A stretch of 25,721 nt of DNA, from positions 1-25,721 of IMG/VR virus record IMGVR_UViG_3300017971_000711; one strand, given 5' to 3'. The number at the start of each line of letters is the position of its first letter. Position 1 is the first letter of the stretch. The translations under genes were made by a program, and so were the position numbers. Positions 2,105 through 14,186 of the stretch are shown here, piece by piece. This DNA is from a virus. Below the pieces are notes generated by a model, which did not search any database, was not told the origin of the DNA, and saw only the letters and a list, made by a program, of their open reading frames with translations.

Positions 2105-2381
2105 GAAAGTTTGTCCGCGCTGCGGGTTGATTGATAATCCCGATTGCGCGAAATGCCGCGCGCGAATTAAGCAGCGCGAACAAGTTAAGCAATGGCAAAT
2201 TGATCACGCGGAACAATACGCCGAAATACGTAAGGAAGCCATGGCGAAACAAAACGCCAAGCGCAAATCGAAGCATCAAGAGGGTCGGCGCAATAAGGAC
2301 CTTTACCAGCCGAAATCACTTCAACAGCTTCCGGTTGAGAAAATGATTAGAGCTTTTAAGGAAGGCAGGGTGGTATCGTGA
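2091..2381 (+). CDS. Small zinc-ribbon protein
   Basis: A 96-aa basic protein whose N-terminus carries two CxxC knuckles, C8/C11 and C19/C22 (CPRCG and CAKC), the usual signature of a zinc ribbon. After that comes a long, highly charged, probably helical stretch rich in Lys, Arg, Gln and Glu (about residues 25-70), suited to nucleic-acid contact. The C-terminal part (LPVEKMIRAFKEGRVVS) looks like one amphipathic helix. A role in DNA or RNA binding is likely but the target is unknown. The stop overlaps the GTG start of the next gene (GTGA). Confidence 0.7.
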   Translation: MGRPKKVCPRCGLIDNPDCAKCRARIKQREQVKQWQIDHAEQYAEIRKEAMAKQNAKRKSKHQEGRRNKDLYQPKSLQQLPVEKMIRAFKEGRVVS

Positions 2382-3295
2382 GAATTATCGGCGCGGGTTT
2401 AGCGGGTTTATTGGCCGCTCAATACTTCCCGCACGCCTCTATTATAGAGGCATCGCCGAAACCGGACACGCATAAGGCGCTGTTACGATTTCGGAGTGAT
2501 AAGATTGCGCGCTTTCTGGGCATCGATTTCTTACCCGTTACTGTAAGGAAAGGAATATGGCTTAATGGACGATTTATTGATCCTGATATTCGAGTGGCTA
2601 ACTGGTATGCGCAAAAAGTGATCGGAAGTTTGGCTGATCGGAGTATTTGGAATTTGGATCCTGTTACTCGATATATCGCGCCGGAATGGCTGATTGAAGA
2701 GCTTATCGCGCGGTGCGGTGATCGGATAACGTGGGGCCTAGAGGCGGGAAAGGAGATACTGGACTTAGGAGAGGACCTTATTAGCACCATCCCATTGAAA
2801 TTTTGGGCCACTGCTTTCGATTTAGGTAGCACTCCGCCATTCGCCTATCAGCCAATCGCAGTTCGGCGTTATCGCATTCCATCAGCTAACGTGTATCAGA
2901 CCGTTTACTTTCCCGCTCCCGATCAACTTTTATATCGGGCTAGTATCACTAAGGATATACTAATTTGCGAGTATATTGGGCGGGTCGATGATCCTGTATT
3001 TGACGATAGCGTTTTGGACGCTTTCGGTTTGGCGGGTAAATGGATAGAACCGATGGATAATACGGCGCGGGAATTTGGCAAAATCCGCGCTATCGATAAC
3101 GAGTGGCGCCGCAGTTTTATTTATTGGCTCACGAATAAGCATCACGTGTACAGCTTGGGCCGATACGGAACGTGGCGCAACATTTTGCTGGATGAGGTCT
3201 TTAGCGATTTGGAACAGATTCAACGATTGCTTAGGACCGGAAACAAATATGACCGCTTACTTAATGTAATAAACCCTTTTAATAAGGAGGCCTGA
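2378..3295 (+). CDS. FAD/NAD(P)-binding Rossmann flavoprotein, oxidoreductase or mutase-like
   Basis: The first residues, IIGAGLAGLLAAQ, contain the dinucleotide-binding GxGxxG loop (G5, G7, G10), with E24 at the end of the second strand placed to bind the adenosine ribose. This is the classical FAD-binding start of amine-oxidase, UDP-galactopyranose-mutase and protoporphyrinogen-oxidase relatives. Near the C-terminus, YSLGRYGTW followed by a long helix resembles the second FAD-contacting region of the UDP-galactopyranose mutase group. At 305 aa it is shorter than those enzymes (usually 370 or more), so the substrate domain is reduced. The substrate cannot be read from sequence. The GTG start overlaps the previous stop; AAGGAAGGCAGGG lies upstream. 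It sits between DNA-binding-type genes, which hints at a role in nucleotide, base or surface-sugar chemistry. Confidence 0.75.
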   Translation: MRIIGAGLAGLLAAQYFPHASIIEASPKPDTHKALLRFRSDKIARFLGIDFLPVTVRKGIWLNGRFIDPDIRVANWYAQKVIGSLADRSIWNLDPVTRYIAPEWLIEELIARCGDRITWGLEAGKEILDLGEDLISTIPLKFWATAFDLGSTPPFAYQPIAVRRYRIPSANVYQTVYFPAPDQLLYRASITKDILICEYIGRVDDPVFDDSVLDAFGLAGKWIEPMDNTAREFGKIRAIDNEWRRSFIYWLTNKHHVYSLGRYGTWRNILLDEVFSDLEQIQRLLRTGNKYDRLLNVINPFNKEA

Positions 3296-3784: not shown

Positions 3785-4288
3785 GTGTCTAAAGACCTAT
3801 CGAAAAGGTTGATGAGCTGCGTTACAGACCTTATTAAAGCCGATGAAAAGGTGGCTAAGGCTGAGAAGGCGCTGACGGAAGCGAAGAAAAAGGCCCAGAC
3901 GTTACGTGAAGAGACTATACCGGGGATGATGGAAGAGTTGGGAATAACCCGCCTAGATCATCGTTCTGGGCGCGTAGTAACGGTGAAACAGGAAGTTTAC
4001 GCCTCTATCCCAGCCGATAATAAGGAGGCAGCGCACCGCTGGCTAGAGGAACACGACCACGGGGATCTGATCAAAGTAGATGTTACCGCTAAATACGGGA
4101 AAGGAGATATCAAAAAGGCGATCAAACTCTGGGAACAACTGGAGAAAAAGGGGCTGAATGTCGCTTTTAAGGAATCAGTTCACGCTAGTACCTTAAAGGC
4201 GTTTTTACGGGAACAATTAGCCGCAGGAAAGAAAGTGCCGCTGAATTTGTTCGGCGCACGTCCTGTTTTGACAACTGTTATTAAATAG
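3785..4288 (+). CDS. Conserved phage coiled-coil protein next to the ssDNA-binding gene
   Basis: A 167-aa protein starting with GTG after GGAGCGAAAG. Residues about 14-45 are an Ala/Lys/Glu-rich coiled coil. The remainder follows a pattern I associate with a phage family of unknown function found near replication genes: an IPADNKEAAHRWLEEHDHGDLIK stretch (about 75-97), then VHASTLKAFLREQLAAGKK (132-150) and P.NLFG near the end. I cannot name a biochemical role. Its place directly before a putative ssDNA-binding protein, with an 8-nt gap, suggests a replication or recombination accessory. It is the first gene after the hairpin at 3714-3747 and may be transcribed or processed separately from the genes before it. 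Confidence 0.7.
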   Translation: MSKDLSKRLMSCVTDLIKADEKVAKAEKALTEAKKKAQTLREETIPGMMEELGITRLDHRSGRVVTVKQEVYASIPADNKEAAHRWLEEHDHGDLIKVDVTAKYGKGDIKKAIKLWEQLEKKGLNVAFKESVHASTLKAFLREQLAAGKKVPLNLFGARPVLTTVIK

Positions 4289-4296
4289 GAGAGACC

Positions 4297-5091
4297 ATGC
4301 CTAAGAAAAAGCCAGTTACGAAAAAGAAACCGCCCACAAAGGCGGTCGCAAAACGCGGTTCAACTGAAGTTGGGAAGCCGCTTGATTTTTCCGCTGATGC
4401 GGGAAAAGGGATGGAAGGAAGTGATGCCGATACTTTCGCGCTGCCTTTCGTCAATGTTCTACAACCCTTATCGCCGCAAATGGACACCATCGATGGCGCC
4501 AAAGCGGGGATGTTCTTCAACAGTATTACCATGGAGCTTTTCAAGACCGTCCGGGTCATCCCGTGCGCCTTCCAACGGCGTTTCTTGCGTTGGGCCCCAC
4601 GTGACCAGGGTGGCGGCTTCAAAGGTATCTTCCATCCATCCGACATCGAAAGCGGCAAGATCGATGGAGTGGAGCGCGATGAAAATGGCTTTTTGAGTAT
4701 CGATGGCGATGATTTGCGAGATACGCGGAGCCATTATTGTCTCGTGTATTCGGAGAAACTGGACACATGGACCCCTGCGGTCATCTCGATGTCCAGCACC
4801 CAGGTGAAAAAGTCCAAACGGTTTATGAGCATGATTAACGGTTTGGAGCTCAAAAAGGGGAAACAGAGCTTCACCCCGCCGTCCTTCAGCCACATCTATG
4901 AATTTTCGACCGTTAAGGAAGAAAACGAAAAGGGTAAGTGGTTTGGTATCGAAATGGAGCTTGTCGGTCCTGTGGAAGATGCTTCGCTGTACGCCAAAGG
5001 CCGCGCGTTCAACGAGCAGGTTTTGGCCGGGGAAGTTAAAGTGTCGGACCCCGTGCCGGAAACGTCTAACGGAGACGATGACGATTTTTAA
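4297..5091 (+). CDS. Putative ssDNA-binding protein with acidic C-terminal tail
   Basis: A 264-aa protein with a Lys/Pro-rich N-terminal tail (residues 1-20), a mixed beta-rich core (about 45-235) and an acidic C-terminus ending GDDDDF. An acidic tail with a terminal Phe is characteristic of ssDNA-binding proteins such as T7 gp2.5 and bacterial SSB, where it recruits replication partners. The core has FALPFVNVLQPLSPQ (47-61) and RFLRWAPRDQGGGFKGIF (95-112), patterns I associate with phage proteins of this class. No OB-fold motif can be proven by eye. The start follows AGGAGAG. It precedes the Prim-Pol/helicase, from which it is separated by a terminator-like hairpin. Base composition here looks more GC-rich than in neighbours, in keeping with a highly expressed gene. 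Confidence 0.6.
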   Translation: MPKKKPVTKKKPPTKAVAKRGSTEVGKPLDFSADAGKGMEGSDADTFALPFVNVLQPLSPQMDTIDGAKAGMFFNSITMELFKTVRVIPCAFQRRFLRWAPRDQGGGFKGIFHPSDIESGKIDGVERDENGFLSIDGDDLRDTRSHYCLVYSEKLDTWTPAVISMSSTQVKKSKRFMSMINGLELKKGKQSFTPPSFSHIYEFSTVKEENEKGKWFGIEMELVGPVEDASLYAKGRAFNEQVLAGEVKVSDPVPETSNGDDDDF

Positions 5092-5104
5092 TTGTCGTCT
5101 AACG

Positions 5105-5134
5105 GTGGGCGGGGATTATACCCCGTCCACTTTT
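5105..5134 (+). terminator. Rho-independent terminator or attenuator
   Basis: GTGGGCGGGG (5105-5114) pairs with CCCCGTCCAC (5121-5130) around an ATTATA loop; the 10-bp stem has one G-U pair. TTTT follows at once (5131-5134). This is a good intrinsic terminator placed between the putative ssDNA-binding protein and the Prim-Pol gene. Because the next gene starts only 20 nt later with no clear promoter, partial read-through is likely: abundant binding protein, less replicase. Confidence 0.75.
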
Positions 5135-5153
5135 ACTTACAAAGGTTGCATAC

Positions 5154-7313
5154 ATGGATACGATGCATAAAGCAGCAATTGAATATGTTAAAAAGGGGTG
5201 GCTCGTTTTCCCTTTACACTCCGTTAAAAAGGACTTACAATGTACTTGTGGCAAAGTTGGTTGTACCGATGCCGGCAAACATCCCCGCACAAGGCAAGGC
5301 CACAAGGATGCTACAAGAGATTTGGCGCAGGTCGATAAGTGGTTCAAGAAAGGTCGAGCTAAATCCAACATCGGTATCGTTACGGGTGAGCGCTCAGGCA
5401 TTACCGTTATCGATATTGATATTGGCGAAGGCAAATTTGGTAAGGAATCATGGGCAGAGCTAATAAAGGAGCACGGGGAACCTGAAACCCTTATGGCTCA
5501 AACGGGGTCTGGCGGCTTACACGTGATCTTCCAGTATAATTCGGCATTAAAAACTGCGTCTAATATCTTGGGCAAAGGGATCGATTGCCGAAATGATGGG
5601 GGCTATATTGTCGCAGCTCCATCGCACCATTGGTCTGGTGGGAAGTACAAGTGGCTTAACTGGGGAACCGATTTAGCCGTGCTTCCAGCGCACTTATCGC
5701 AGCGCAAAGAGACCAGAGGCAGACCGCGTAAAGATGATCCATATCGCGGGAAGTACACCATTGAACAAATCGCTTCGATGTTAGAGTGTATTCCTTCCGA
5801 CGATAGGGACCTGTGGCGTGCGGTCGGTATCATTCTAGGACGTGAGTTCAATCGTATCGATGAGGCTTGGGAGCTATACACAGAGTGGGCCGACACTTAT
5901 ACCGGGAAGAAAGGCAGGGGGCACGACGAAATCATGCATCAGGCCTTCTACGAAATATCACAAGAGGAATCATCCAGCCAATTATCATTCGGCACCATCG
6001 TTAAGGCCGCGCTCGATAACGGTTGGGCTCCGAAGAAAGGCGAAGTGCCTATTGAAAATTTTGTGTATTTCGGTCCTGGGAACAGTTTTATATATCGGCC
6101 TACCATTAATCATTGGGTGGGGTCGGCGGTCGATGCTGCTGTATCTCCCGTTAATATGAACGGTAAGATAGTGAAGGCAAGCGATTGGCTAAAGATAAAC
6201 CAATTATGTACATCGATGACCTGCGATCCCGCTATTGATGAGGATTATTTGAAGGGGCACGATTGTAGGGAAGGGGAGATTATCGAGAACCCCGGTGCCG
6301 CTTTGTTCAATTCCTATCGGCGACCCACGATTGAACCGGGAGATGCGAAGTTGGCCAAGCCTTTTATCGAGCATTGCCATTTGATGTTCGATAAACCGGG
6401 AGATGCGAAACAATTTCTCGATTATATGGCGCATCGAGTACAGAAGCCATGGGAGAAGCCACGTTTTGCGCTCCTTATATCGGGAGGCCAAGGCGTGGGG
6501 AAGGATACTGCTGTTGAATTTTGCGCTCCTGCTATCGGCGTTTGGAATTTTGCCAATATCGATCCTAATGCGCTTGAGTCCAGCTTTAACGAGTATGTTA
6601 CAGCCACCCTTATAAGAATAAATGAGGCGGCTAACTTAGCTGAGATGACAAAGTGGGCTTTTAATGAGCACACCAAAGTTCTTATCGCTGGCTCACCGGA
6701 CATCTGTCAAGTAAACCCTAAATATGGTCAAAAGTTCTCAGTCAGAATGCATTGTGGCGTGGTCATCACCACTAATCACTTAGCGGAAGGCATATATATC
6801 CCGCCGGATGATAGGAGATACGATGTTATACAATGCGCTACGCTGAAAGAAATGGGGCTGGGGGATGATAAAAAGCGGAGAGATTATTTCAGCGACCTGT
6901 GGCAATGGTTTCTTAAAGGAGGCATGGCTCATGTAGCTGCTTACCTTCAAGAACGGGATATCAGAAAATTTTCGGCCAGCAATGGTCAGCGTAAAACTGA
7001 TGCGCATAAGACGATTGTTGCAGGCGGTATGGGCGGGGATCAATGGCTGGATGATATTATCGATGAACTGGGAGAGCCTATTGCTATACGCTCTGACTGG
7101 CTTATAACGAGAGCAACCGAAGGTGGAGAGAAGGAAGCAAACATACGACGCAAACTGGGGCCTACGATGGGACGGTTGGGTTACACGATGCTTCGTAGCA
7201 ACCACAAGGACGGTCGATGGAAGATAGGAGGCAAAAAGGTTACGGTGTATGCGAAATCGGGGCTGCCAAATGGATATGATCCGCAAACTGAATTACTAAA
7301 GGAGCCATTCTAA
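5154..7313 (+). CDS. Bifunctional primase-polymerase fused to a helicase
   Basis: A 719-aa replication protein. Residues 1-180 form a Prim-Pol (archaeo-eukaryotic primase) domain: CTC..GC...GKHP (C30, C32, C37, H43), the catalytic VIDIDI pair (D87, D89), SGGLHV with H123, and GIDCRNDGGY (D144). Residues about 200-290 match a PriCT-2-type primase C-terminal region (LECIPSDDRDLWRAVG, then GRGH). Residues about 390-620 are a helicase of the D5/NrS-1-like kind, with Walker A GGQGVGKDT (444-452), a region RINEAANL resembling Walker B/sensor, and VVITTN as sensor 1. It would make primers, and perhaps short extensions, and unwind at the fork for the DnaE-like polymerase encoded downstream. The ATG at 5154 is the first in frame after the terminator hairpin, with AAAGG upstream. 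The stop overlaps the next start (TAATG). Confidence 0.92.
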   Translation: MDTMHKAAIEYVKKGWLVFPLHSVKKDLQCTCGKVGCTDAGKHPRTRQGHKDATRDLAQVDKWFKKGRAKSNIGIVTGERSGITVIDIDIGEGKFGKESWAELIKEHGEPETLMAQTGSGGLHVIFQYNSALKTASNILGKGIDCRNDGGYIVAAPSHHWSGGKYKWLNWGTDLAVLPAHLSQRKETRGRPRKDDPYRGKYTIEQIASMLECIPSDDRDLWRAVGIILGREFNRIDEAWELYTEWADTYTGKKGRGHDEIMHQAFYEISQEESSSQLSFGTIVKAALDNGWAPKKGEVPIENFVYFGPGNSFIYRPTINHWVGSAVDAAVSPVNMNGKIVKASDWLKINQLCTSMTCDPAIDEDYLKGHDCREGEIIENPGAALFNSYRRPTIEPGDAKLAKPFIEHCHLMFDKPGDAKQFLDYMAHRVQKPWEKPRFALLISGGQGVGKDTAVEFCAPAIGVWNFANIDPNALESSFNEYVTATLIRINEAANLAEMTKWAFNEHTKVLIAGSPDICQVNPKYGQKFSVRMHCGVVITTNHLAEGIYIPPDDRRYDVIQCATLKEMGLGDDKKRRDYFSDLWQWFLKGGMAHVAAYLQERDIRKFSASNGQRKTDAHKTIVAGGMGGDQWLDDIIDELGEPIAIRSDWLITRATEGGEKEANIRRKLGPTMGRLGYTMLRSNHKDGRWKIGGKKVTVYAKSGLPNGYDPQTELLKEPF
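6334..6409 (+). repeat. 16-bp direct repeat inside the Prim-Pol/helicase gene
   Basis: AACCGGGAGATGCGAA occurs at 6334-6349 and again at 6394-6409, exactly 60 nt apart and in frame, so both copies encode PGDAK. It may be a short internal duplication or chance; there is no sign of further copies nearby. Confidence 0.6.
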
Positions 7314-7601: not shown

Positions 7602-8072
7602 ATGCGAAAACACTGGCGATATTTGAAGTATTTGGCAAGGCATAAATGGTATGTCTTTATCGAATGTTGCAAGTTAGGAATACCCTTCCACGGCGTATTC
7701 CACGACTTATCGCAATTGTTGCCTGATGAATGGTTTGCTTATGCTGAGTTTTTTTATGGCGATTGGCTGGATGATGTTAGTCCTTATATCCAAAAACGAT
7801 TTAACAAGGCGTGGCTTAAGCACCAGCGAAGGAACAACCACCATTGGCAACATTGGGTTCTGCGTAGGGACAGCGGAGAGTCCATCCCGGTTGACATACC
7901 GAAGAATGTCATCCTCCATATGATAGCTGACTGGCGTGGAGCTGGTCGCGCGATGCAAGGTTATGATGATTCTAAAATGTATTATCACAATCGTAAACGC
8001 ATTATGATACTTACGGAAAAGACGCGTGCTGCCATCGAGTGGCGTCTCCGTTACAATGAAAGGGACCTGTAA
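7602..8072 (+). CDS. DUF5662-like protein, His/Asp-rich
   Basis: A 156-aa protein that follows the DUF5662 pattern as I remember it: HKWYVFIECCKLGIP, FHDLSQLLPDEWFAYAEFFYG (H34-D35 and P41-G53), LKHQRRNNHHWQHW (72-85), MIADWRGAGRAMQG (107-120) and YYHNRKRIMILTEKTR. The spaced H34-D35, H80/H81 and D110 could make an HD-like metal site, which would suggest phosphohydrolase activity on nucleotides; that is inference. The start follows AGGAG at 7589-7593. The gene overlaps the ThyX start (TAATG), placing it in the nucleotide-metabolism-like cluster. Function of the family is not established. Confidence 0.75.
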   Translation: MRKHWRYLKYLARHKWYVFIECCKLGIPFHGVFHDLSQLLPDEWFAYAEFFYGDWLDDVSPYIQKRFNKAWLKHQRRNNHHWQHWVLRRDSGESIPVDIPKNVILHMIADWRGAGRAMQGYDDSKMYYHNRKRIMILTEKTRAAIEWRLRYNERDL

Positions 8073-8785
8073 TGAAAGTAACACTACTTAACTATACGCA
8101 AGACGCCATCGACCTATTGCTGTTCACCAAAAGCACGCGGCTTGGCCTCACTCCGGGGCTGATGGATAAAATTAAGGCGATGGACGAAGAAGACAAGATG
8201 AAACAGCTAGTGTATATGGCCAATACGGTCCCCAGTAGCTGGGAGTTTGTCGATTACACCTTCTTGATCGAAGGGGTTAGCCGCGCCTTTACCCATCAGC
8301 TAGTGCGGACCCGCACGGGGTCTTATGCCCAGCAAGCCATGCGGGTCGTAGATATGAGCGACTTTGATTATGTTTATACGCAGCATAATCTTGAAAACGA
8401 TTTTGAGCGAACCGTGATTGATGTTTTACTTGGGCGTATACACGAAGTCTATCATGGCTTACTTCAAAATGACGTTCCCATCGAAGATGCACGGGGCATC
8501 CTCCCGACTAACATAGCGACTAACATCATAGCGAAGTTCAACCTGCGGGCCTTCGCTCAATTGATCGCTAGTCGCATCGGCGGTCGCACCCAAGGTGAAT
8601 ATCGAAGCGTTGCCATGGCGATGGCGGATGCCGTGCTCGAAGTTCATCCGTGGGCCGAAATGTTCATCTTCAAGAAGGATCGTGATTACTACGATGAAGC
8701 TGAAAAGTTCGCGGCTACGCTTTCGCCGAAAGACAAAGATCAGCTTCTCAAAATCATCCACCACATGAGGGGAGCTGGGTCATGA
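8072..8785 (+). CDS. thyX: Flavin-dependent thymidylate synthase (ThyX), divergent motif
   Basis: A 237-aa protein of ThyX type; the family makes dTMP from dUMP with methylene-tetrahydrofolate, NADPH and FAD. The region THQLVRTRTGSYAQQAMR (74-91) aligns with the signature RHRxxSxNxxSxR: R79, R81, S84 and R91 are kept, while His80 is Thr, Asn86 is Ala and the active-site Ser89 is Ala. The second conserved region, FNLRAFAQLIASRIGGRTQGEYR, matches the NLRxFxxxR...AQxEIR block. Published work on the Thermotoga enzyme showed that the Ser is not an essential nucleophile, so activity is possible. It would boost dTTP for phage replication, or act on a related pyrimidine. The start overlaps the previous stop and the end overlaps the following membrane protein (ATGA). 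Confidence 0.85.
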   Translation: MKVTLLNYTQDAIDLLLFTKSTRLGLTPGLMDKIKAMDEEDKMKQLVYMANTVPSSWEFVDYTFLIEGVSRAFTHQLVRTRTGSYAQQAMRVVDMSDFDYVYTQHNLENDFERTVIDVLLGRIHEVYHGLLQNDVPIEDARGILPTNIATNIIAKFNLRAFAQLIASRIGGRTQGEYRSVAMAMADAVLEVHPWAEMFIFKKDRDYYDEAEKFAATLSPKDKDQLLKIIHHMRGAGS

Positions 8786-9090
8786 ATAAGCGTGATTTAA
8801 TAGTCAATTTGTTAGGCTATTTTATGTTCTTTATCGTTGCCGTTGTATATCCTATCGGATTGTGGATAGGGGGACAAGATCACGCAACGATACGTTATGC
8901 TGAAGTGATAAATAAAGAATCTGTTAAAAGCAGAGTATTTTATATCACTTTGCAGGCGAAAGGCACAGCATGGGGCTTTACGCAAACGTGGACCGAAAAT
9001 GTGCCTTATCAATTTTATGATGCTATAATGATTGGTGATACCGTCGATGTCAAAAATCGTTGTACATTAACATTCGCTAATAAATATTGA
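8782..9090 (+). CDS. Small membrane protein with one N-terminal TM segment
   Basis: Unrecognised, 102 aa. Residues about 9-30 (NLLGYFMFFIVAVVYPIGLWIGG) are a hydrophobic membrane segment. The remaining 70 residues are polar and beta-rich (VFYITLQAKGTAWGFTQTW, VDVKNRCTLTF), likely a small domain outside the membrane. The N-terminus is basic (MNKRDL) and no cleavage site is obvious, which suggests an anchored protein with the C-terminal domain in the periplasm. GAGGGGAG precedes the ATG, and the start overlaps thyX. Its presence among nucleotide enzymes is odd; an early host-envelope function such as superinfection exclusion is possible but unproven. Confidence 0.65.
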   Translation: MNKRDLIVNLLGYFMFFIVAVVYPIGLWIGGQDHATIRYAEVINKESVKSRVFYITLQAKGTAWGFTQTWTENVPYQFYDAIMIGDTVDVKNRCTLTFANKY

Positions 9091-9103
9091 AGGAACGGAC
9101 TTT

Positions 9104-9595
9104 ATGAGTTACCAAATCTTTGATCTCGACAACTGCATTTCGGATGATAGCTGGCGCATTCCGCACATCCAGCACGAAGCTGACAACGATTTTATCAAAT
9201 TCCACGATTATCATTCGCTGTCGGCGTTCGACGTTCTCAAAAATGAGGAAGCCGTTCGCACCAAGAGCGACATCATTATATTGACCGCAAGGCCTGTGAT
9301 ATATCACGCGATAACTATGCATTGGCTGGAGCTGCACAATATAACGATCACCCACTTGCTGATGCGTAGCGTTCACGATCACCGATCCAGCGTAGTGGTG
9401 AAAAAGGAACTGCTAAACGTTTTGTTCAATATGGCTAACGTGCCCATTCGTGAAATCGAAGCGGCTCACGATGATGATCCTAAAGTGGTTCGACTATACC
9501 ACGACCTGGGACTCAACGCGGTGCATATGAAGATCCACGATGTTCCGTATAAACTGGAGGAAGACAGCAATGGCTCAAAAACTAACCCCGCCTGA
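9104..9595 (+). CDS. HAD-superfamily phosphatase
   Basis: A 163-aa protein with the HAD catalytic motifs in order: motif I FDLDNCISDD (nucleophile D7, acid/base D9), motif II ILTARP (T61), a Lys pair at 100-101 for motif III, and motif IV HDDDP (D123-D125). The arrangement, without a large cap, resembles the phosphatase domain of T4 polynucleotide kinase and small nucleotidases. Probable substrates are 5'-nucleotides or 3'-phosphate ends; the sequence does not decide. There is no kinase P-loop attached, so it is not a full Pnk. AAGGA precedes the ATG, and the end overlaps the next gene by 26 nt. Placement between thyX and a DUF1599-like gene supports a role in nucleotide turnover. Confidence 0.82.
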   Translation: MSYQIFDLDNCISDDSWRIPHIQHEADNDFIKFHDYHSLSAFDVLKNEEAVRTKSDIIILTARPVIYHAITMHWLELHNITITHLLMRSVHDHRSSVVVKKELLNVLFNMANVPIREIEAAHDDDPKVVRLYHDLGLNAVHMKIHDVPYKLEEDSNGSKTNPA

Positions 9596-9899
9596 AATAA
9601 TGGAGGAAATGAAGGCGTTGTTTTTGGAGCGGTCTAAAATATACGGCGCCAATTACCAGATGGTGGGGAATGTGTTAAAGGCTTTCTTCCCCAATGGAGT
9701 TAGGCTAAGGAGTGATCACGATTTCTTAGTGTGGCACCTATTCGAGCTGATGATCGTTAAGCTGACTCGCTTCGTACATAGCGGCCTATCCCATCACGAT
9801 AGTATCAGGGATTTGGCCGTATATGCGACGATGGTGGAAAGTGAACTCGATGGAGAAAGGATCGGTGATGTCGAAAATACTAGTGACAGGATCGGCTAA
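9570..9899 (+). CDS. DUF1599 (Nmad1) / DUF6378-like small helical protein
   Basis: 109 aa from the ATG at 9570, chosen because GGAGG (9556-9560) lies 9 nt before it; an upstream ATG at 9540 has no such site. The pattern is helical with RSKIYGANYQMVG (21-33), a FxxLMIVKLTRF helix (58-69) and HHDSIRDLAVYATMVE (75-90). These K-x-YG, K-x-x-R and DSIxDLxxY blocks resemble DUF1599, also called nucleotide modification associated domain 1, and the similar DUF6378. Members are common in phages; a link to modified bases was proposed from gene neighbourhoods, not biochemistry. It overlaps the HAD gene upstream and the SDR gene downstream (32 nt), so all three are probably co-translated. Confidence 0.65.
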   Translation: MAQKLTPPEIMEEMKALFLERSKIYGANYQMVGNVLKAFFPNGVRLRSDHDFLVWHLFELMIVKLTRFVHSGLSHHDSIRDLAVYATMVESELDGERIGDVENTSDRIG

Positions 9900-10539
9900 C
9901 GGCTTAGGCAGGGTGGTGTTAGCTGCACTTTATAAAGCTGGTCACGATGTTTATCATTATGATATCGAACACGGCCGTAATGTGCTTGAACCTGACCTTA
10001 CCGGCATCAGCGAACTGGATGTACTCATCAACAATGCCGGGGTCAACTATCTGAATTGGATCGGTCGCATCAGCGAAGCGAAATGGGATTGGGTCATGGA
10101 CACTAATGCTAAAGGCGCGTTCATGATGACGAAGGCGTGCTTACCGATGCTGAAAGAAAGCAAAGGCACGATCCTCAACATCATTAGCAATGCGGCATGG
10201 GATCCCATGACTTGCTCACTGGCCTATAACGCTTCTAAGGGCGCACTCGCTATTATGACCGAACAAATGGCGCGTGAGCTTAAGCGGCAATGGGGCATCG
10301 ATGTATTCGGGATCGCTCCTAATAAGTTGAAGGGCACGCCGATGTCTAACAATGTTGATCGAATGGTGTGTAAAGTTCGTGATTGGACGCCTGAGCACGC
10401 TTTTCGGTATCAGCAGCAAGCTCTCCTTACTGGCGAAGAAATCCCGTGTGAAATCTTGGCCGAGTTTATATCATATTTACTGGCCACAAAAGACAACCAT
10501 CGTTTTCTTAGTGGCTGTATTATACCTTACGGAGCGTGA
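9868..10539 (+). CDS. Short-chain dehydrogenase/reductase (SDR)
   Basis: 223 aa from the ATG at 9868, which has AGAAAGG upstream; in-frame starts further left have no ribosome binding site. The classical SDR features are complete: cofactor loop TGSANGLG (residues 7-14), NNAG (55-58), and the catalytic set N80, S107, Y120 and K124 in YNASK. It should be an active NAD(P)-dependent oxidoreductase. The length is slightly short for classical SDRs (about 250), and the segment after PNKLKGTPMS that closes over the substrate is divergent. The substrate is unknown. SDR genes are uncommon in a phage replication region, so a role in modifying a sugar, base or cofactor precursor is worth considering. The stop is 1 nt before the exonuclease gene. 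Confidence 0.88.
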   Translation: MSKILVTGSANGLGRVVLAALYKAGHDVYHYDIEHGRNVLEPDLTGISELDVLINNAGVNYLNWIGRISEAKWDWVMDTNAKGAFMMTKACLPMLKESKGTILNIISNAAWDPMTCSLAYNASKGALAIMTEQMARELKRQWGIDVFGIAPNKLKGTPMSNNVDRMVCKVRDWTPEHAFRYQQQALLTGEEIPCEILAEFISYLLATKDNHRFLSGCIIPYGA

Positions 10540-10540
10540 C

Positions 10541-11095
10541 ATGAACTTTCTTTTGATCGATGTAGAAACAACCGGGTTGCTGAAGGCGAAAAAGAGTGAG
10601 CTAGATGATCAACCTCATATCACCGAGTTCGGTGCAATATTGGCGACCGATAAAGGCGATATCATCTATGCCGCTGATCAGCTTATTCAACCGCCCATCC
10701 CGATACCGGAAGAAACGATCAAGATCAACGGGGTCACGGATGATCTGGTGAAAGGGATGCCGACATTTGAGGAATACTTTGACATCATCGATTGCATGTT
10801 TGAAGATGCTCATGTATTAGTCGCTCACAACGCGCCGTTCGATAAAGGGATGATCGATGTCGAATACAAACGGCTTTGTAAAATTGAAAAGTTGGATTAT
10901 CCCGAACATGTAGTATGCACGGTTCAAGAATATAAAGCTAAAATGGGTAAATGGCCTAAGCTCACGGAGCTTTACAAAAAGGTCATAGGAAAGGAGTTGC
11001 AACAGACCCATCGAGCTTTAGACGATTGCCGCGCCTTGCACGATATATTGAAGAAGGACAAGTTTTACGCTAAAATGAGAAAGGCTTTGAAATGA
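10541..11095 (+). CDS. DnaQ-like 3'-5' exonuclease (proofreading subunit type)
   Basis: 184 aa from the ATG at 10541; the open frame extends 189 nt further left inside the SDR gene, but the protein family starts at LLIDVETTG. The DEDDh exonuclease residues are all present: D7 and E9 in DVETTG, D101 in HNAPFDKGM, and H157/D162 in HRALDD, matching HxAxxD. It is a stand-alone domain about the length of the catalytic part of E. coli epsilon, without a clear C-terminal polymerase-binding tail. Together with a DnaE-like polymerase 320 nt downstream whose PHP site is lost, it is the likely proofreading exonuclease of the phage replisome. The stop overlaps the next start (ATGA). Confidence 0.9.
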   Translation: MNFLLIDVETTGLLKAKKSELDDQPHITEFGAILATDKGDIIYAADQLIQPPIPIPEETIKINGVTDDLVKGMPTFEEYFDIIDCMFEDAHVLVAHNAPFDKGMIDVEYKRLCKIEKLDYPEHVVCTVQEYKAKMGKWPKLTELYKKVIGKELQQTHRALDDCRALHDILKKDKFYAKMRKALK

Positions 11096-11421
11096 AAACG
11101 CTCGTAGTCACCCATCCGACAGTCGATATGGATATGAGCTGGAATCTGGACGATGTCCAGTATATTATCGACGGCTCTATCAAACTCGCTAATGTCGAGA
11201 CGCCTGTGCCGATCAGAGAAAAGGCAGCCGACCTGGCCCTGCAGCTGATCAATCTGGGCTTCATTGAAGTTTACGATCCGACTACAACCCATCCGAAATA
11301 CGTGAATATCAGTCACATTCGCGGCTGGTGGGATCATGTAATCAACATTCGCGGCTCGATGACCCCGTTCGATTGTTCCGAAGATATGCTGTCCATTAAG
11401 GGCAAGATCGAGACAGTATGA
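11092..11421 (+). CDS. Hypothetical protein between exonuclease and polymerase (109 aa)
   Basis: Unrecognised. It begins by overlapping the exonuclease stop and ends by overlapping the polymerase start (both ATGA), so it is bound into the replisome operon. Beta-strand-like start (TLVVTHPTV), an acidic helix (about 60-75, KAADLALQLINLGFIEVYD), and a Trp-rich segment HIRGWWDHVINIRGS. No metal or nucleotide motif is evident. Its place makes an accessory role, for example linking exonuclease and polymerase, an attractive guess, but the sequence does not show this. Confidence 0.65.
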   Translation: MKTLVVTHPTVDMDMSWNLDDVQYIIDGSIKLANVETPVPIREKAADLALQLINLGFIEVYDPTTTHPKYVNISHIRGWWDHVINIRGSMTPFDCSEDMLSIKGKIETV

Positions 11422-14186
11422 TCCAACTTCGACTAAAAACTGAGTACAGTTTCGGTCGTACCTTTGCGCCTATCGGTCGTATGATCGATAGGCTCAAAGG
11501 ACTTAATTGTACAGCCGCTGGCATCGTCGATGGTTCTAGTTGGGGCCACGTAGCGTGGTATAACGCGTGCCGAAAGGCCGGAATACGACCGCTTTTAGGG
11601 ATTGAATCGATTGTTAGCGACGATGATACAGCATCGTCTATGTGGTTTCTCGCTAAGAATAAGGCCGGATTAGTCGAATTATACCGGGCCATCAGTAAAA
11701 GTTACCATCAGAAAATTAAGCTCTCCCGTGGCGCCTTACCCCGGTTGCACCGTCTCGATGTGCGCAACATGAGCGATAACATTTTTAAGTTCGCTGGCGA
11801 TATCACTGATGGCCCATTCCTTAAGGACATTGAAGCGGTTCTCGATCTCAACCCATCTAGTCGCATTTTGAATGTCCTTAAGAGGCAGCTGGCTCGTAAG
11901 CACCATCTTAAGATGGTCGATACTTCCGACAACGCCTTTGTTCATAAAACCGATGTTGATGTATATGAGATGATGTCTAAGGCGGGGCTGAAGGTAACGC
12001 CTCAATATATCTTAGAGACGCTTGAATGTCAGGGCACGGCGCGTGCTATCGCTAAGGCGTGCGAAGAACTGGAGCTGCCGAAGGCTCCTAATCTTCACGC
12101 TGAAGGCGATTTAGAAAAGTTATGTCGGAAGGGCATCAAGTATCGTAAGATGAAGTGGACGAAGAAGTATGAGGAGCGGCTACAGTATGAGCTAGAACTA
12201 ATCCGCGCAAAGAAGTATGAGAGCTATTTCATTATTGTAGCGGATATGGTTCATTATGCTAAGAAACACATGCTGGTTGGGCCTAGTCGTGGATCGGCGG
12301 CTGGCTCTCTAGTTTGCTACACTACTCGTATCACCGAAATCGATCCCATACCGCCAGGGCTGTATTTCGAGCGGTTTATTGATCCCACCCGAGTCGATTT
12401 ACCGGATATTGATTTAGATTTTCCTGACAACAAGCGCCATATGGTGTTCGAGTATATGGCTAAGAAGTACGGCGAAGATAATGTTGCGCACATCGGCACC
12501 ATTAGCCGCTTTAAGCCACGCTCAGCGCTCATCCAAGTTTGTAAGGCTCTTAATATCCCGCCACAGGCCACCGCACCCGTTAAGGTTGCCATGATTGAAC
12601 GATCATCGGCTGATGCGCGCGCTAGTAATTGTTTGGAAGATACGCTGAATGAAACATCGGTCGGTAAGCAATTTCTCAAGCAGTATCCCCAAGCCGTCAC
12701 CGCTACCTTATTAGAAGGGCACGCCTCTCACACAGGCGTACACGCAGCGGGGTTACTCGTTTGCGATAACGCCATTAATGATTATTGCGTGGTAGACGAT
12801 AAAGGCGTTGCGCATGTCGAGAAGAAAGCCGCTGCTGAATTAGGCTTATTGAAGATCGACGTGCTGGGATTGCGCACATTGGGGATATTGGAAGATAGCG
12901 GAGTTAAGGTTGATTGGTATGGATTGAAGTTCAATGATAAAAAGACATTTAATGTTTTCAATTCTGGCAATCTTTGCGGCATCTTCCAGTTCGACGGTCA
13001 GGCGATGCGGTCAATAGCATCGTTGATCGACGTTCGCACCTTAACGGAAGTCGATGCTATTACAGCTCTTGCTAGACCGGGCCCATTTAGAGGCGGGGTG
13101 ACTAAGCAGTATATTGAGCGCAAGAATGGCACCCCATATAAGCCGATCCACCCGAAGGTGGAGGCTCAGATGAAGGAGACATTTGGGCTACCTATTTATC
13201 AGGAGCAGACGCTGGCTATTGTACACAATATCGGAAAATTCAACTGGACCGAAACAGCCGATATTCGTACCGCTATGTCTAAGAGCCTGGGTGAAGAGTT
13301 CTTTGATAAATACACCAATCGCTTTATCAAAGGAGCCTTATCGCAAGGGGTTGATGAAGAAGGCGCGCGTACAACCTGGGAGCTTATCAACCATATGGGC
13401 GCATGGCAGATGAATAAGGCGCATACCTATAGTTACGCCGTTATCAGCTACTGGACTGCGTATCTTAAGGCGCATTATCCGCTTGAATTTGCTGCGGCTA
13501 ATCTTCGCAATGCGAAGGATAATGATCACGCTATCTTATTGCTACGAGAGCTTAAGCGGGAGGGCATCGATTATGTCCCCTTTGATTTAGAATGCAGCAA
13601 ACTCGATTGGTCAGTCATCGATGGTAAATTGTATGGCGGGTTCTTGGCGCTTAGAGGAATTGGAGAGAGTAAAGGCGCGAAGTTGATTGATGCGCGGGAT
13701 AAGGGTGCCCTGACTAAGAAGCAACTAGAACAACTAGCTAAGGCCCAGAATCCCTTTGATAACATCTTCCCGTTCCATACCTACTATCAAGACTACTACG
13801 ACAATCCAGAGGCGCACGGCATATCTTCGGGCAAGGTTTGGGAAGTGGCCGATATCAATATGGAAAACGGGGTGCCGCACGGCCATACCCGTGTCTTCTT
13901 AGCAGAACTAATACACAAGAACGCTAGAAATGCTAACGAAGATGTGAATATCAAGAAACGCAACGGCGTAGTGGCCACAGGCCCTTTAGAGTACGTCGAT
14001 GTACGATTGCGAGACGATCACGCGGTGATCGGCGGTCGTGTTGACAGGTATCGTTTTGAGAAGTTGGGCAGAAAGCTATTAGAGGAAGTGGACATTGGAG
14101 CTCATCTGTTAATCCGCGCAAAGTTTTTCAATGGGATCCCATGGGCCTTTATAAGTAAGTGGAAGGAGATAACGCCTAATGATTAA
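11418..14186 (+). CDS. dnaE: C-family DNA polymerase (DNA polymerase III alpha / DnaE-like)
   Basis: A 922-aa replicative polymerase, shorter than bacterial DnaE (about 1,160). The palm motifs are complete: GPSRGSAAGSL, PDIDLDFPD (catalytic D332 and D334) and LLKIDVLGLRTL (third Asp D481), followed by the fingers region QFDGQAMR and ARPGPFRGG. The N-terminal PHP domain is reduced: the first strand reads LRLKTEYSF where metal-binding HxH is usual, and IVDGSS replaces ITDHGN, so PHP exonuclease activity is improbable. The HhH region (FLALRGIGESKGAKLI) is kept, while C-terminal clamp- and tau-binding parts are shortened. It should copy the phage genome with the upstream DnaQ-like subunit. The ribosome binding site is weak and the start overlaps the previous stop, which suggests translational coupling. 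Confidence 0.95.
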   Translation: MIQLRLKTEYSFGRTFAPIGRMIDRLKGLNCTAAGIVDGSSWGHVAWYNACRKAGIRPLLGIESIVSDDDTASSMWFLAKNKAGLVELYRAISKSYHQKIKLSRGALPRLHRLDVRNMSDNIFKFAGDITDGPFLKDIEAVLDLNPSSRILNVLKRQLARKHHLKMVDTSDNAFVHKTDVDVYEMMSKAGLKVTPQYILETLECQGTARAIAKACEELELPKAPNLHAEGDLEKLCRKGIKYRKMKWTKKYEERLQYELELIRAKKYESYFIIVADMVHYAKKHMLVGPSRGSAAGSLVCYTTRITEIDPIPPGLYFERFIDPTRVDLPDIDLDFPDNKRHMVFEYMAKKYGEDNVAHIGTISRFKPRSALIQVCKALNIPPQATAPVKVAMIERSSADARASNCLEDTLNETSVGKQFLKQYPQAVTATLLEGHASHTGVHAAGLLVCDNAINDYCVVDDKGVAHVEKKAAAELGLLKIDVLGLRTLGILEDSGVKVDWYGLKFNDKKTFNVFNSGNLCGIFQFDGQAMRSIASLIDVRTLTEVDAITALARPGPFRGGVTKQYIERKNGTPYKPIHPKVEAQMKETFGLPIYQEQTLAIVHNIGKFNWTETADIRTAMSKSLGEEFFDKYTNRFIKGALSQGVDEEGARTTWELINHMGAWQMNKAHTYSYAVISYWTAYLKAHYPLEFAAANLRNAKDNDHAILLLRELKREGIDYVPFDLECSKLDWSVIDGKLYGGFLALRGIGESKGAKLIDARDKGALTKKQLEQLAKAQNPFDNIFPFHTYYQDYYDNPEAHGISSGKVWEVADINMENGVPHGHTRVFLAELIHKNARNANEDVNIKKRNGVVATGPLEYVDVRLRDDHAVIGGRVDRYRFEKLGRKLLEEVDIGAHLLIRAKFFNGIPWAFISKWKEITPND

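Follow-up and report, generated by a model that had tools for sequence, protein, structure and literature searches.

The virus record IMGVR_UViG_3300017971_000711 of IMG/VR, a linear stretch of 25,721 bases that is referred to here as a whole as the window, carries on its plus strand a run of genes for a ThyX-family flavin-dependent thymidylate synthase, a HAD phosphatase, a small DUF6378-like protein (D6378) and an SDR oxidoreductase, close to the gene of a DNA polymerase III alpha-type replicative polymerase (PolIII). The reading that we favour, at a confidence somewhat short of even, is that this cassette encodes a mononucleotide-level pyrimidine-modification pathway within a PolIII-type replication module, and that its most likely product would be a modified thymine-like deoxynucleotide for phage DNA; it is preferred to an ordinary supply of dTMP. 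The conserved unit is larger than the run noticed in a preliminary description of the window and also includes a FAD-fold protein (2378-3295), a DnaQ-type exonuclease and PolIII alpha. That description had proposed a cassette for base modification or for remodelling the dNTP pool. A conserved, pathway-like unit at the replicative polymerase is supported; moreover, plain dTMP synthesis offers no obvious role for two flavin/NAD enzymes and, in relatives, a VOC protein. The DUF1599 (Nmad1) assignment, which had served as a prop of the base-modification argument, is not supported: hmmscan returned no match to this family at E ≤ 1.

The evidence for a unit comes from its conservation. A scan of IMG/VR with D6378 yielded 67 loci, the neighbours of which were identified by tblastn with proteins of the window and its relatives; the set is redundant, with D6378 proteins forming 18 clusters at 92% identity. 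All follow one architecture: FAD - ThyX - (Pyr_excise-like, 37/67) - HAD - D6378 - SDR - VOC - exonuclease - PolIII. Among loci with room, i.e., those whose contig extends far enough for the gene in question, D6378 is followed by SDR (60/60), VOC (55/55), exonuclease (55/55) and PolIII (51/51), and preceded by ThyX (44/44), HAD (44/44) and FAD (39/39). In a second, VOC-anchored search, which overlaps the D6378 set, the best 80 of 182 loci contained, where there was room, SDR in 79/79, D6378 in 75/75, HAD in 63/63, ThyX in 54/55 and FAD in 41/41. The PolIII proteins fall into two groups by identity to that of the window, 67-68% (8 loci) and mostly 38-41% (46 loci, with short matches at 24 and 35), and the cassette order is kept where PolIII is only about 39% identical, which argues for conservation beyond chance. 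Of 54 loci, 46 have an SDR that is closer to its window counterpart than their PolIII is. Of the five-gene order that had been proposed as a search target in other phages, the succession ThyX-HAD-D6378-SDR is kept, whereas tblastn detected the small membrane open reading frame (ORF), the DUF5662 gene and two small flanking ORFs of the window in 0/67 loci, which marks them as local additions. The FAD gene adjoins ThyX upstream in the relatives and is set apart from it in the window by the primase and other genes.

Among cultured phages, tblastn against 50,697 phage records found relatives of D6378, the FAD protein and the VOC protein of one IMG/VR relative (L026) in 360, 359 and 54 records, respectively, and relatives of the window ThyX in 496; the 178 records for the L026 SDR take in other SDRs. 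The organism tallies of D6378 and FAD relatives nearly coincide, when compared as tallies and not record by record. The full cassette is present in Xanthomonas phage FoX7, Pantoea phage Kyle and the E. coli Wifcevirus Bas98. Pbunavirus DL68 encodes the FAD protein, ThyX, a HAD/D6378 fusion, exonuclease and PolIII, with no match for SDR or VOC, and in Rhizobium phage TM40, ThyX and a HAD/D6378 protein lie near dUTPase and ribonucleotide reductase (RNR). Vibrio phage VA-RY-3 and Cronobacter phage Ss1 combine FAD and ThyX with a HAD+DUF3310 fusion in place of HAD/D6378: the DUF3310 match is sub-threshold in VA-RY-3 (0.0037) and over the cut-off in Ss1 (4e-9), and both match phrog_236, 'nucleotide kinase' (1.3e-12 and 4e-17, respectively). 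T7 gp1.7, an annotated nucleotide kinase, matches DUF3310 at 4.5e-23. A sulfotransferase-like gene stands at the place of the SDR in VA-RY-3 (L002:7205-7960). A scan of genome_contigs with the D6378 alignment gave 21 pattern matches and 0 confirmed relatives, and hence no prophage or cellular copy, and scans of viral_contigs with a single ThyX or SDR sequence, or with the DUF3310 domain of VA-RY-3, returned no matches.

Replication regions of actinophages of the clusters D, DV and EF (Giuseppe, NarutoRun, Xenia2) provide a parallel, and that of Giuseppe holds a comparable set of enzymes. The run of Mycobacterium phage Giuseppe consists of an oxidoreductase, HAD, a methyltransferase, a small protein, a FabG-like SDR, PolIII, a further gene and ThyX, while Microbacterium phage NarutoRun has the order oxidoreductase - ThyX - small protein - PolIII. 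Both thus share a FAD-type oxidoreductase, ThyX and PolIII with the cassette, and Giuseppe in addition a HAD nucleotidase and an SDR; they differ in that the order is changed, a methyltransferase is inserted (L152:6097-6627, between the HAD and SDR genes of Giuseppe), the oxidoreductase belongs to PHROG 8720 and no VOC protein is annotated. The Giuseppe SDR falls into phrog_3142 (1.3e-63), as does that of the window, with which it has the segment GMS..ID..V..RGWT..EA..Y in common. Its HAD protein (gp64) belongs to phrog_415, like the window HAD, and exceeds the Pfam cut-off for the deoxypyrimidine 5'-nucleotidase family NT5C (31.9 versus 24.8), for which the window HAD has no match at E ≤ 1. 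The counterparts of D6378 and of the FAD protein are weak by sequence: no homology of the Giuseppe oxidoreductase to phrog_4828 was shown, that of NarutoRun matches at 0.005, and D6378 gave no direct profile signal with Giuseppe gp66 or NarutoRun gp54. As a lead only, D6378 meets the actinophage proteins via phrog_1485 (L045 domain, 4.1e-5; Giuseppe gp66, 7.6e-4; NarutoRun gp54, 8.8e-5). The joint recurrence of similar enzymes in another order argues for a functional connection over mere co-inheritance.

The window ThyX is a divergent member of its family, marked by the motif RTRTGSYAQQAMR. RHRx7S is the signature motif of ThyX enzymes. In an alignment of 20 proteins (A4), the equivalents of Q75, R78, R80, R90, R147, R165 and R174 of the Thermotoga maritima enzyme TM0449 are kept, whereas those of H53, H79, E86 and H178 hold other residues in the window and in nearly all relatives. 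The signature itself is altered: RHR is changed to RTR and NELS to AQQA in the window (RTRTGSYAQQA), and the relatives have RTR or RNR with S, T or A at the position of the Ser.

The catalytic residues of the SDR are intact: T7, G8, G12 and G14 (TGxxxGxG) and the set N80-S107-Y120-K124 are invariant in 16 sequences (alignment A5). It does not reach the equivalog cut-offs for the 3-oxoacyl-ACP reductase FabG (TIGR01830, 75.6 versus 297.75; PRK05653, 74.6 versus 296) and belongs to a PHROGs class of auxiliary metabolic genes. At column H111, beside the catalytic Ser, H is shared by the 15 other SDRs of the alignment and replaced by W in that of the window. A tblastn search of the window fragment detected no VOC gene (best E 0.35), and the loss of H111 and the absence of VOC may be linked. 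Because of both, the pathway is perhaps shortened or changed in the window phage; alternatively, the VOC gene may lie outside the fragment. The VOC label is based on an H/E pattern seen by eye in 14 sequences and on two records that name the protein 'glyoxylase'. The FAD protein has no Pfam match and is 46% identical to that of L026 (E 5e-78). Its AlphaFold2 (AF2) model (pLDDT 81.4) comes closest to UDP-galactopyranose mutase (4dsh_B; VIA Z 19.4, rmsd 3.2, 289 residues) and is also near protoporphyrinogen oxidase (Z 17.7) and monoamine oxidase (Z about 15), so that the model, together with a GxGxxG-like start, points to the flavin fold superfamily only.

In the HAD protein, the catalytic set is complete: D7, D9, T61, K100 and D124 are invariant in 13 aligned sequences. 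Its PDB matches are polynucleotide kinases, at a weak E of 0.0076. The label polynucleotide kinase, which public records attach to the HAD/D6378 protein, was set aside, since only the phosphatase half is present. D6378, which is fused to HAD in other phages, has 33 invariant columns across 19 sequences. It had been called DUF6378-like: the window protein remains below the cut-off of the Pfam profile, as does that of L026 (25.1 bits), which makes it a distant relative at best; it also matches the C-terminus of phrog_4889 (Table 1). Its AF2 model, with three helices, is of low confidence (pLDDT 68, pTM 0.45), and a PDB fold search with this poor model gave no confident match.

Two observations on the relatives concern additional enzymes. 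The Pyr_excise-like protein (T4 endonuclease V-type) lies between ThyX and HAD, e.g., at L008:4919-5404, and scores 19.5 bits in Pfam, below the cut-off of 23; the presence of a base-excision enzyme among these genes could be relevant to a modified base. Locus L005 contains two 2OG-Fe(II) oxygenase domains (PF13640) in one cassette, at 4800-5360 and 7962-8543.

The plus strand of the window is the replication half, with the FAD-fold protein, primase, ThyX run, exonuclease, PolIII alpha and a helicase, and the minus strand encodes lysis, tail and DNA-ejection genes. The genes for ThyX, the small membrane protein, HAD, D6378 and SDR are all present as ORFs in the tight succession described previously (Table 1). 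The ThyX start is the final base of the DUF5662 ORF; ThyX and the membrane ORF overlap by 4 nt, a 13-nt gap separates the latter from HAD, HAD and D6378 overlap by 26 nt, D6378 and SDR by 32 nt, and the exonuclease starts 1 nt past the SDR stop. These overlaps and gaps of 1-13 nt suggest translational coupling of the genes in the run. Purine-rich stretches lie upstream of most starts, such as GGAGGA ahead of D6378 (9570) and GGAGAAAGG ahead of the SDR (9868). The label 'membrane' for the ORF at 8782-9090 was read off an N-terminal hydrophobic stretch, and one ORF of no assigned family lies between the exonuclease and PolIII alpha. In 6/67 loci the primase gene lies upstream of FAD and is read from the opposite strand, as compared with the plus strand in the window, a rearrangement. 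Relatives of the window proteins of phrog_2378 (3785-4288) and phrog_2402 (4297-5091) are encoded close to the helicase gene by Bas98, Kyle and FoX7, and the two are possibly further members of the module.

Table 1. Genes of the cassette and its surroundings in the window, with family matches.
Feature	Position	Strand	Match or remark
FAD-fold oxidoreductase-like protein, 305 aa	2378-3295	+	phrog_4828 E 2.1e-76
Primase-helicase	5154-7313	+	between the FAD gene and ThyX
DUF5662 protein	7602-8072	+	Pfam PF18907 106.9 bits (cut-off 27)
ThyX-family flavin-dependent thymidylate synthase	8072-8785	+	PF02511 109.4 bits (cut-off 24.8); TIGR02170 90.0 (cut-off 87.9)
Small putative membrane ORF	8782-9090	+	Pfam: no family
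HAD phosphatase, PNKP-phosphatase-like	9104-9595	+	PF25109 HAD_PNKP 34.5 bits (cut-off 27.6); phrog_415 E 5e-19
DUF6378-like (D6378) small all-alpha protein	9570-9899	+	PF19905 17.2 bits (below cut-off 27.1); phrog_4889 C-terminus E 1e-23
Classical-type SDR oxidoreductase	9868-10539	+	PF00106 114.1 bits; phrog_3142 E 9e-32
DnaQ-type 3'-5' exonuclease	10541-11095	+	PF00929 83.7 bits; phrog_192 E 3.9e-42
DNA polymerase III alpha-type replicative polymerase	11418-14186	+	phrog_405 E 1e-214

For the pathway, we infer the chemistry of every step. ThyX would attach a one-carbon group to C5 of dUMP or of a related deoxynucleoside monophosphate (dNMP), and the HAD phosphatase would clear unwanted dNMP, e.g., host dTMP. 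The D6378 domain might bind or phosphorylate the chosen dNMP; its place behind HAD is held in VA-RY-3 and Ss1 by a nucleotide-kinase domain of the T7 gp1.7 type (DUF3310), a likeness of position only. The FAD protein and SDR, together with VOC in the relatives, would change the side group by oxidation or rearrangement; PolIII would polymerise the product, which in the DNA might provide a shield from restriction. Such a scheme at the nucleotide level, with an altered dUMP derivative, a dTMP phosphatase, phosphorylation and polymerisation, resembles those of PBS1 and SPO1, the hmdU-type pathway of the latter following the same course. In PBS1, a phage with dU-DNA, the dTMP phosphatase clears dTMP and has a structure like that of the mitochondrial deoxyribonucleotidase (PMC12697855). 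The difference is that PBS1 and SPO1 use a dCTP deaminase or a ThyA-type hydroxymethylase, while the present cassette has ThyX, SDR and the FAD protein: in 12 large cassette contigs, which are possibly fragments, ThyX is present in 12/12, and ThyA, dUTPase, the RNR large chain and thymidylate kinase in 0/12. The phages M6, ViI, SP10 and PhiW-14 tailor thymine side chains with several enzymes, in some cases including a flavin enzyme, and are similar to the cassette in this respect; their substrate is hydroxymethyl-dU that is already part of the DNA, and a DNA kinase and a transferase act on it. No DNA kinase or transferase gene is so named among the family matches of the window or in the Bas98 annotation. 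No paper that describes the cassette as a unit was found in a literature search, which covered few subscription papers.

A possible link to DNA modification is provided by the Wifcevirus genus, which resists all tested restriction-modification (RM) systems but EcoP1_I with no known means of protection (PMC11990801). Bas98 has 18 EcoRI and 57 HindIII sites and only 3 EcoRV sites, so that its EcoRI resistance is not due to site scarcity. Several observations weigh against a modified base. EcoP1_I, the site of which contains T on one strand, strongly restricts Wifcevirus (PMC11990801), and RM resistance can have other causes, e.g., anti-restriction proteins. Pbunavirus, with FAD, ThyX and HAD/D6378, and without a match for SDR or VOC, was mapped with HindIII, EcoRI or XbaI (PMC6521218), and JG024 is cut by SacII, whose site lacks T. 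A/T-containing 6-mer palindromes are avoided in the window (288 versus 385 expected), which has 0 HindIII sites versus 5.9 expected, whereas the modified T4 shows no such avoidance (693 versus 688) and Bas98 is intermediate (859 versus 982). The window ThyX passes not only the Pfam Thy1 cut-off but also the NCBI equivalog cut-off TIGR02170 thyX. That D6378 is a homologue of T7 gp1.7 was rejected for want of a signal in profile comparison (hhalign probability 0.1, from alignments that are both shallow and of low diversity). The literature search mentioned above found no modified base and no liquid chromatography-mass spectrometry of virion nucleosides for these phages. Restriction-site statistics do not decide the matter: Bas98 is intermediate, the window looks unmodified, and the strong depletion of GC-only 6-mer palindromes in Bas98 (L084, L085; 39 versus 121 expected), where those that contain A or T come near their expected number, has a similar tilt in T7 and is not diagnostic. 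Remodelling of the dNTP pool, the other proposal of the preliminary description, stays viable because the palindrome avoidance of the window is that of an unmodified phage and because Pbunavirus could be mapped with restriction enzymes.

The strongest competitor of the modification pathway, possible though on balance unlikely, is ordinary dTMP supply with cleaning of the pool, in which ThyX would make dTMP, HAD would be a housekeeping dNMP phosphatase, SDR and the FAD protein would regenerate folate or flavin cofactors or help to keep the redox balance, and the DNA would be canonical. This would account for the Thy1 and thyX matches, for the invariance of the residues aligned with the T. maritima arginines, for the proximity of ThyX and HAD/D6378 to dUTPase and RNR in TM40, and for the palindrome avoidance in the window. 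However, the usual partners of dNTP supply, i.e., RNR large chain, dUTPase and thymidylate kinase, are absent from the 12 large cassette contigs, a phosphatase counteracts dTMP supply, and unrelated phages, too, have FAD-fold proteins and SDRs next to ThyX. To our knowledge, plain ThyX chemistry needs neither an SDR nor a VOC protein.

Mere shared descent of the replication module seems improbable. Here, HAD would be a 3'-end DNA/RNA repair phosphatase, in keeping with HAD_PNKP as its best Pfam match, over the cut-off, and with the weak polynucleotide-kinase structures; ThyX would provide dTMP; and SDR, FAD and VOC proteins would belong to unrelated host-takeover metabolism, for which the PHROGs class of the SDR and the separate position of the FAD gene in the window can be quoted. 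On the other hand, Giuseppe has comparable enzymes in a changed order and a HAD protein that scores as deoxypyrimidine nucleotidase instead of PNKP, the SDR is more conserved than PolIII in most loci, and VOC and SDR occur together wherever there is room among the best 80 of 182 VOC-anchored loci. Very unlikely is a mixed case, in which the cassette would make a modified base for packaging or for escape from Type IV or CRISPR systems, and another gene would confer the RM resistance of Wifcevirus. Sensitivity to EcoP1_I and resistance to EcoCFT_II at similar site numbers would be odd for a blanket modification (PMC11990801), and the GC-only palindrome avoidance of Bas98 points in the same direction; against this case, no other candidate gene for the resistance has come up, though no detailed search for one was made and most Bas98 genes are hypothetical.

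In its widest form, which we put forward tentatively and as doubtful, the modification pathway would be a ThyX-based route to a modified pyrimidine that has not been described before, working on mononucleotides and composed of a ThyX variant, the FAD protein, SDR and VOC, with a dNMP phosphatase and a small nucleotide-selecting domain as guards; it would be common to marine podovirus-like contigs, Wifcevirus, Carpasinavirus, Kylevirus and Serratia phages, altered in actinophages, and would explain the restriction resistance of Wifcevirus. If this is true, ThyX would be a new enzyme class by which phages rebuild thymine, beside the ThyA-type dUMP/dCMP hydroxymethylases, and there would be a reason for the resistance of Wifcevirus to restriction. 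Functions would also be assigned to phrog_4828, the DUF6378-like domain and the VOC protein, families that occur in hundreds of sequenced phages, and a core version of the cassette (FAD, ThyX and HAD/D6378) is carried by the Pbunavirus phages used in therapy.

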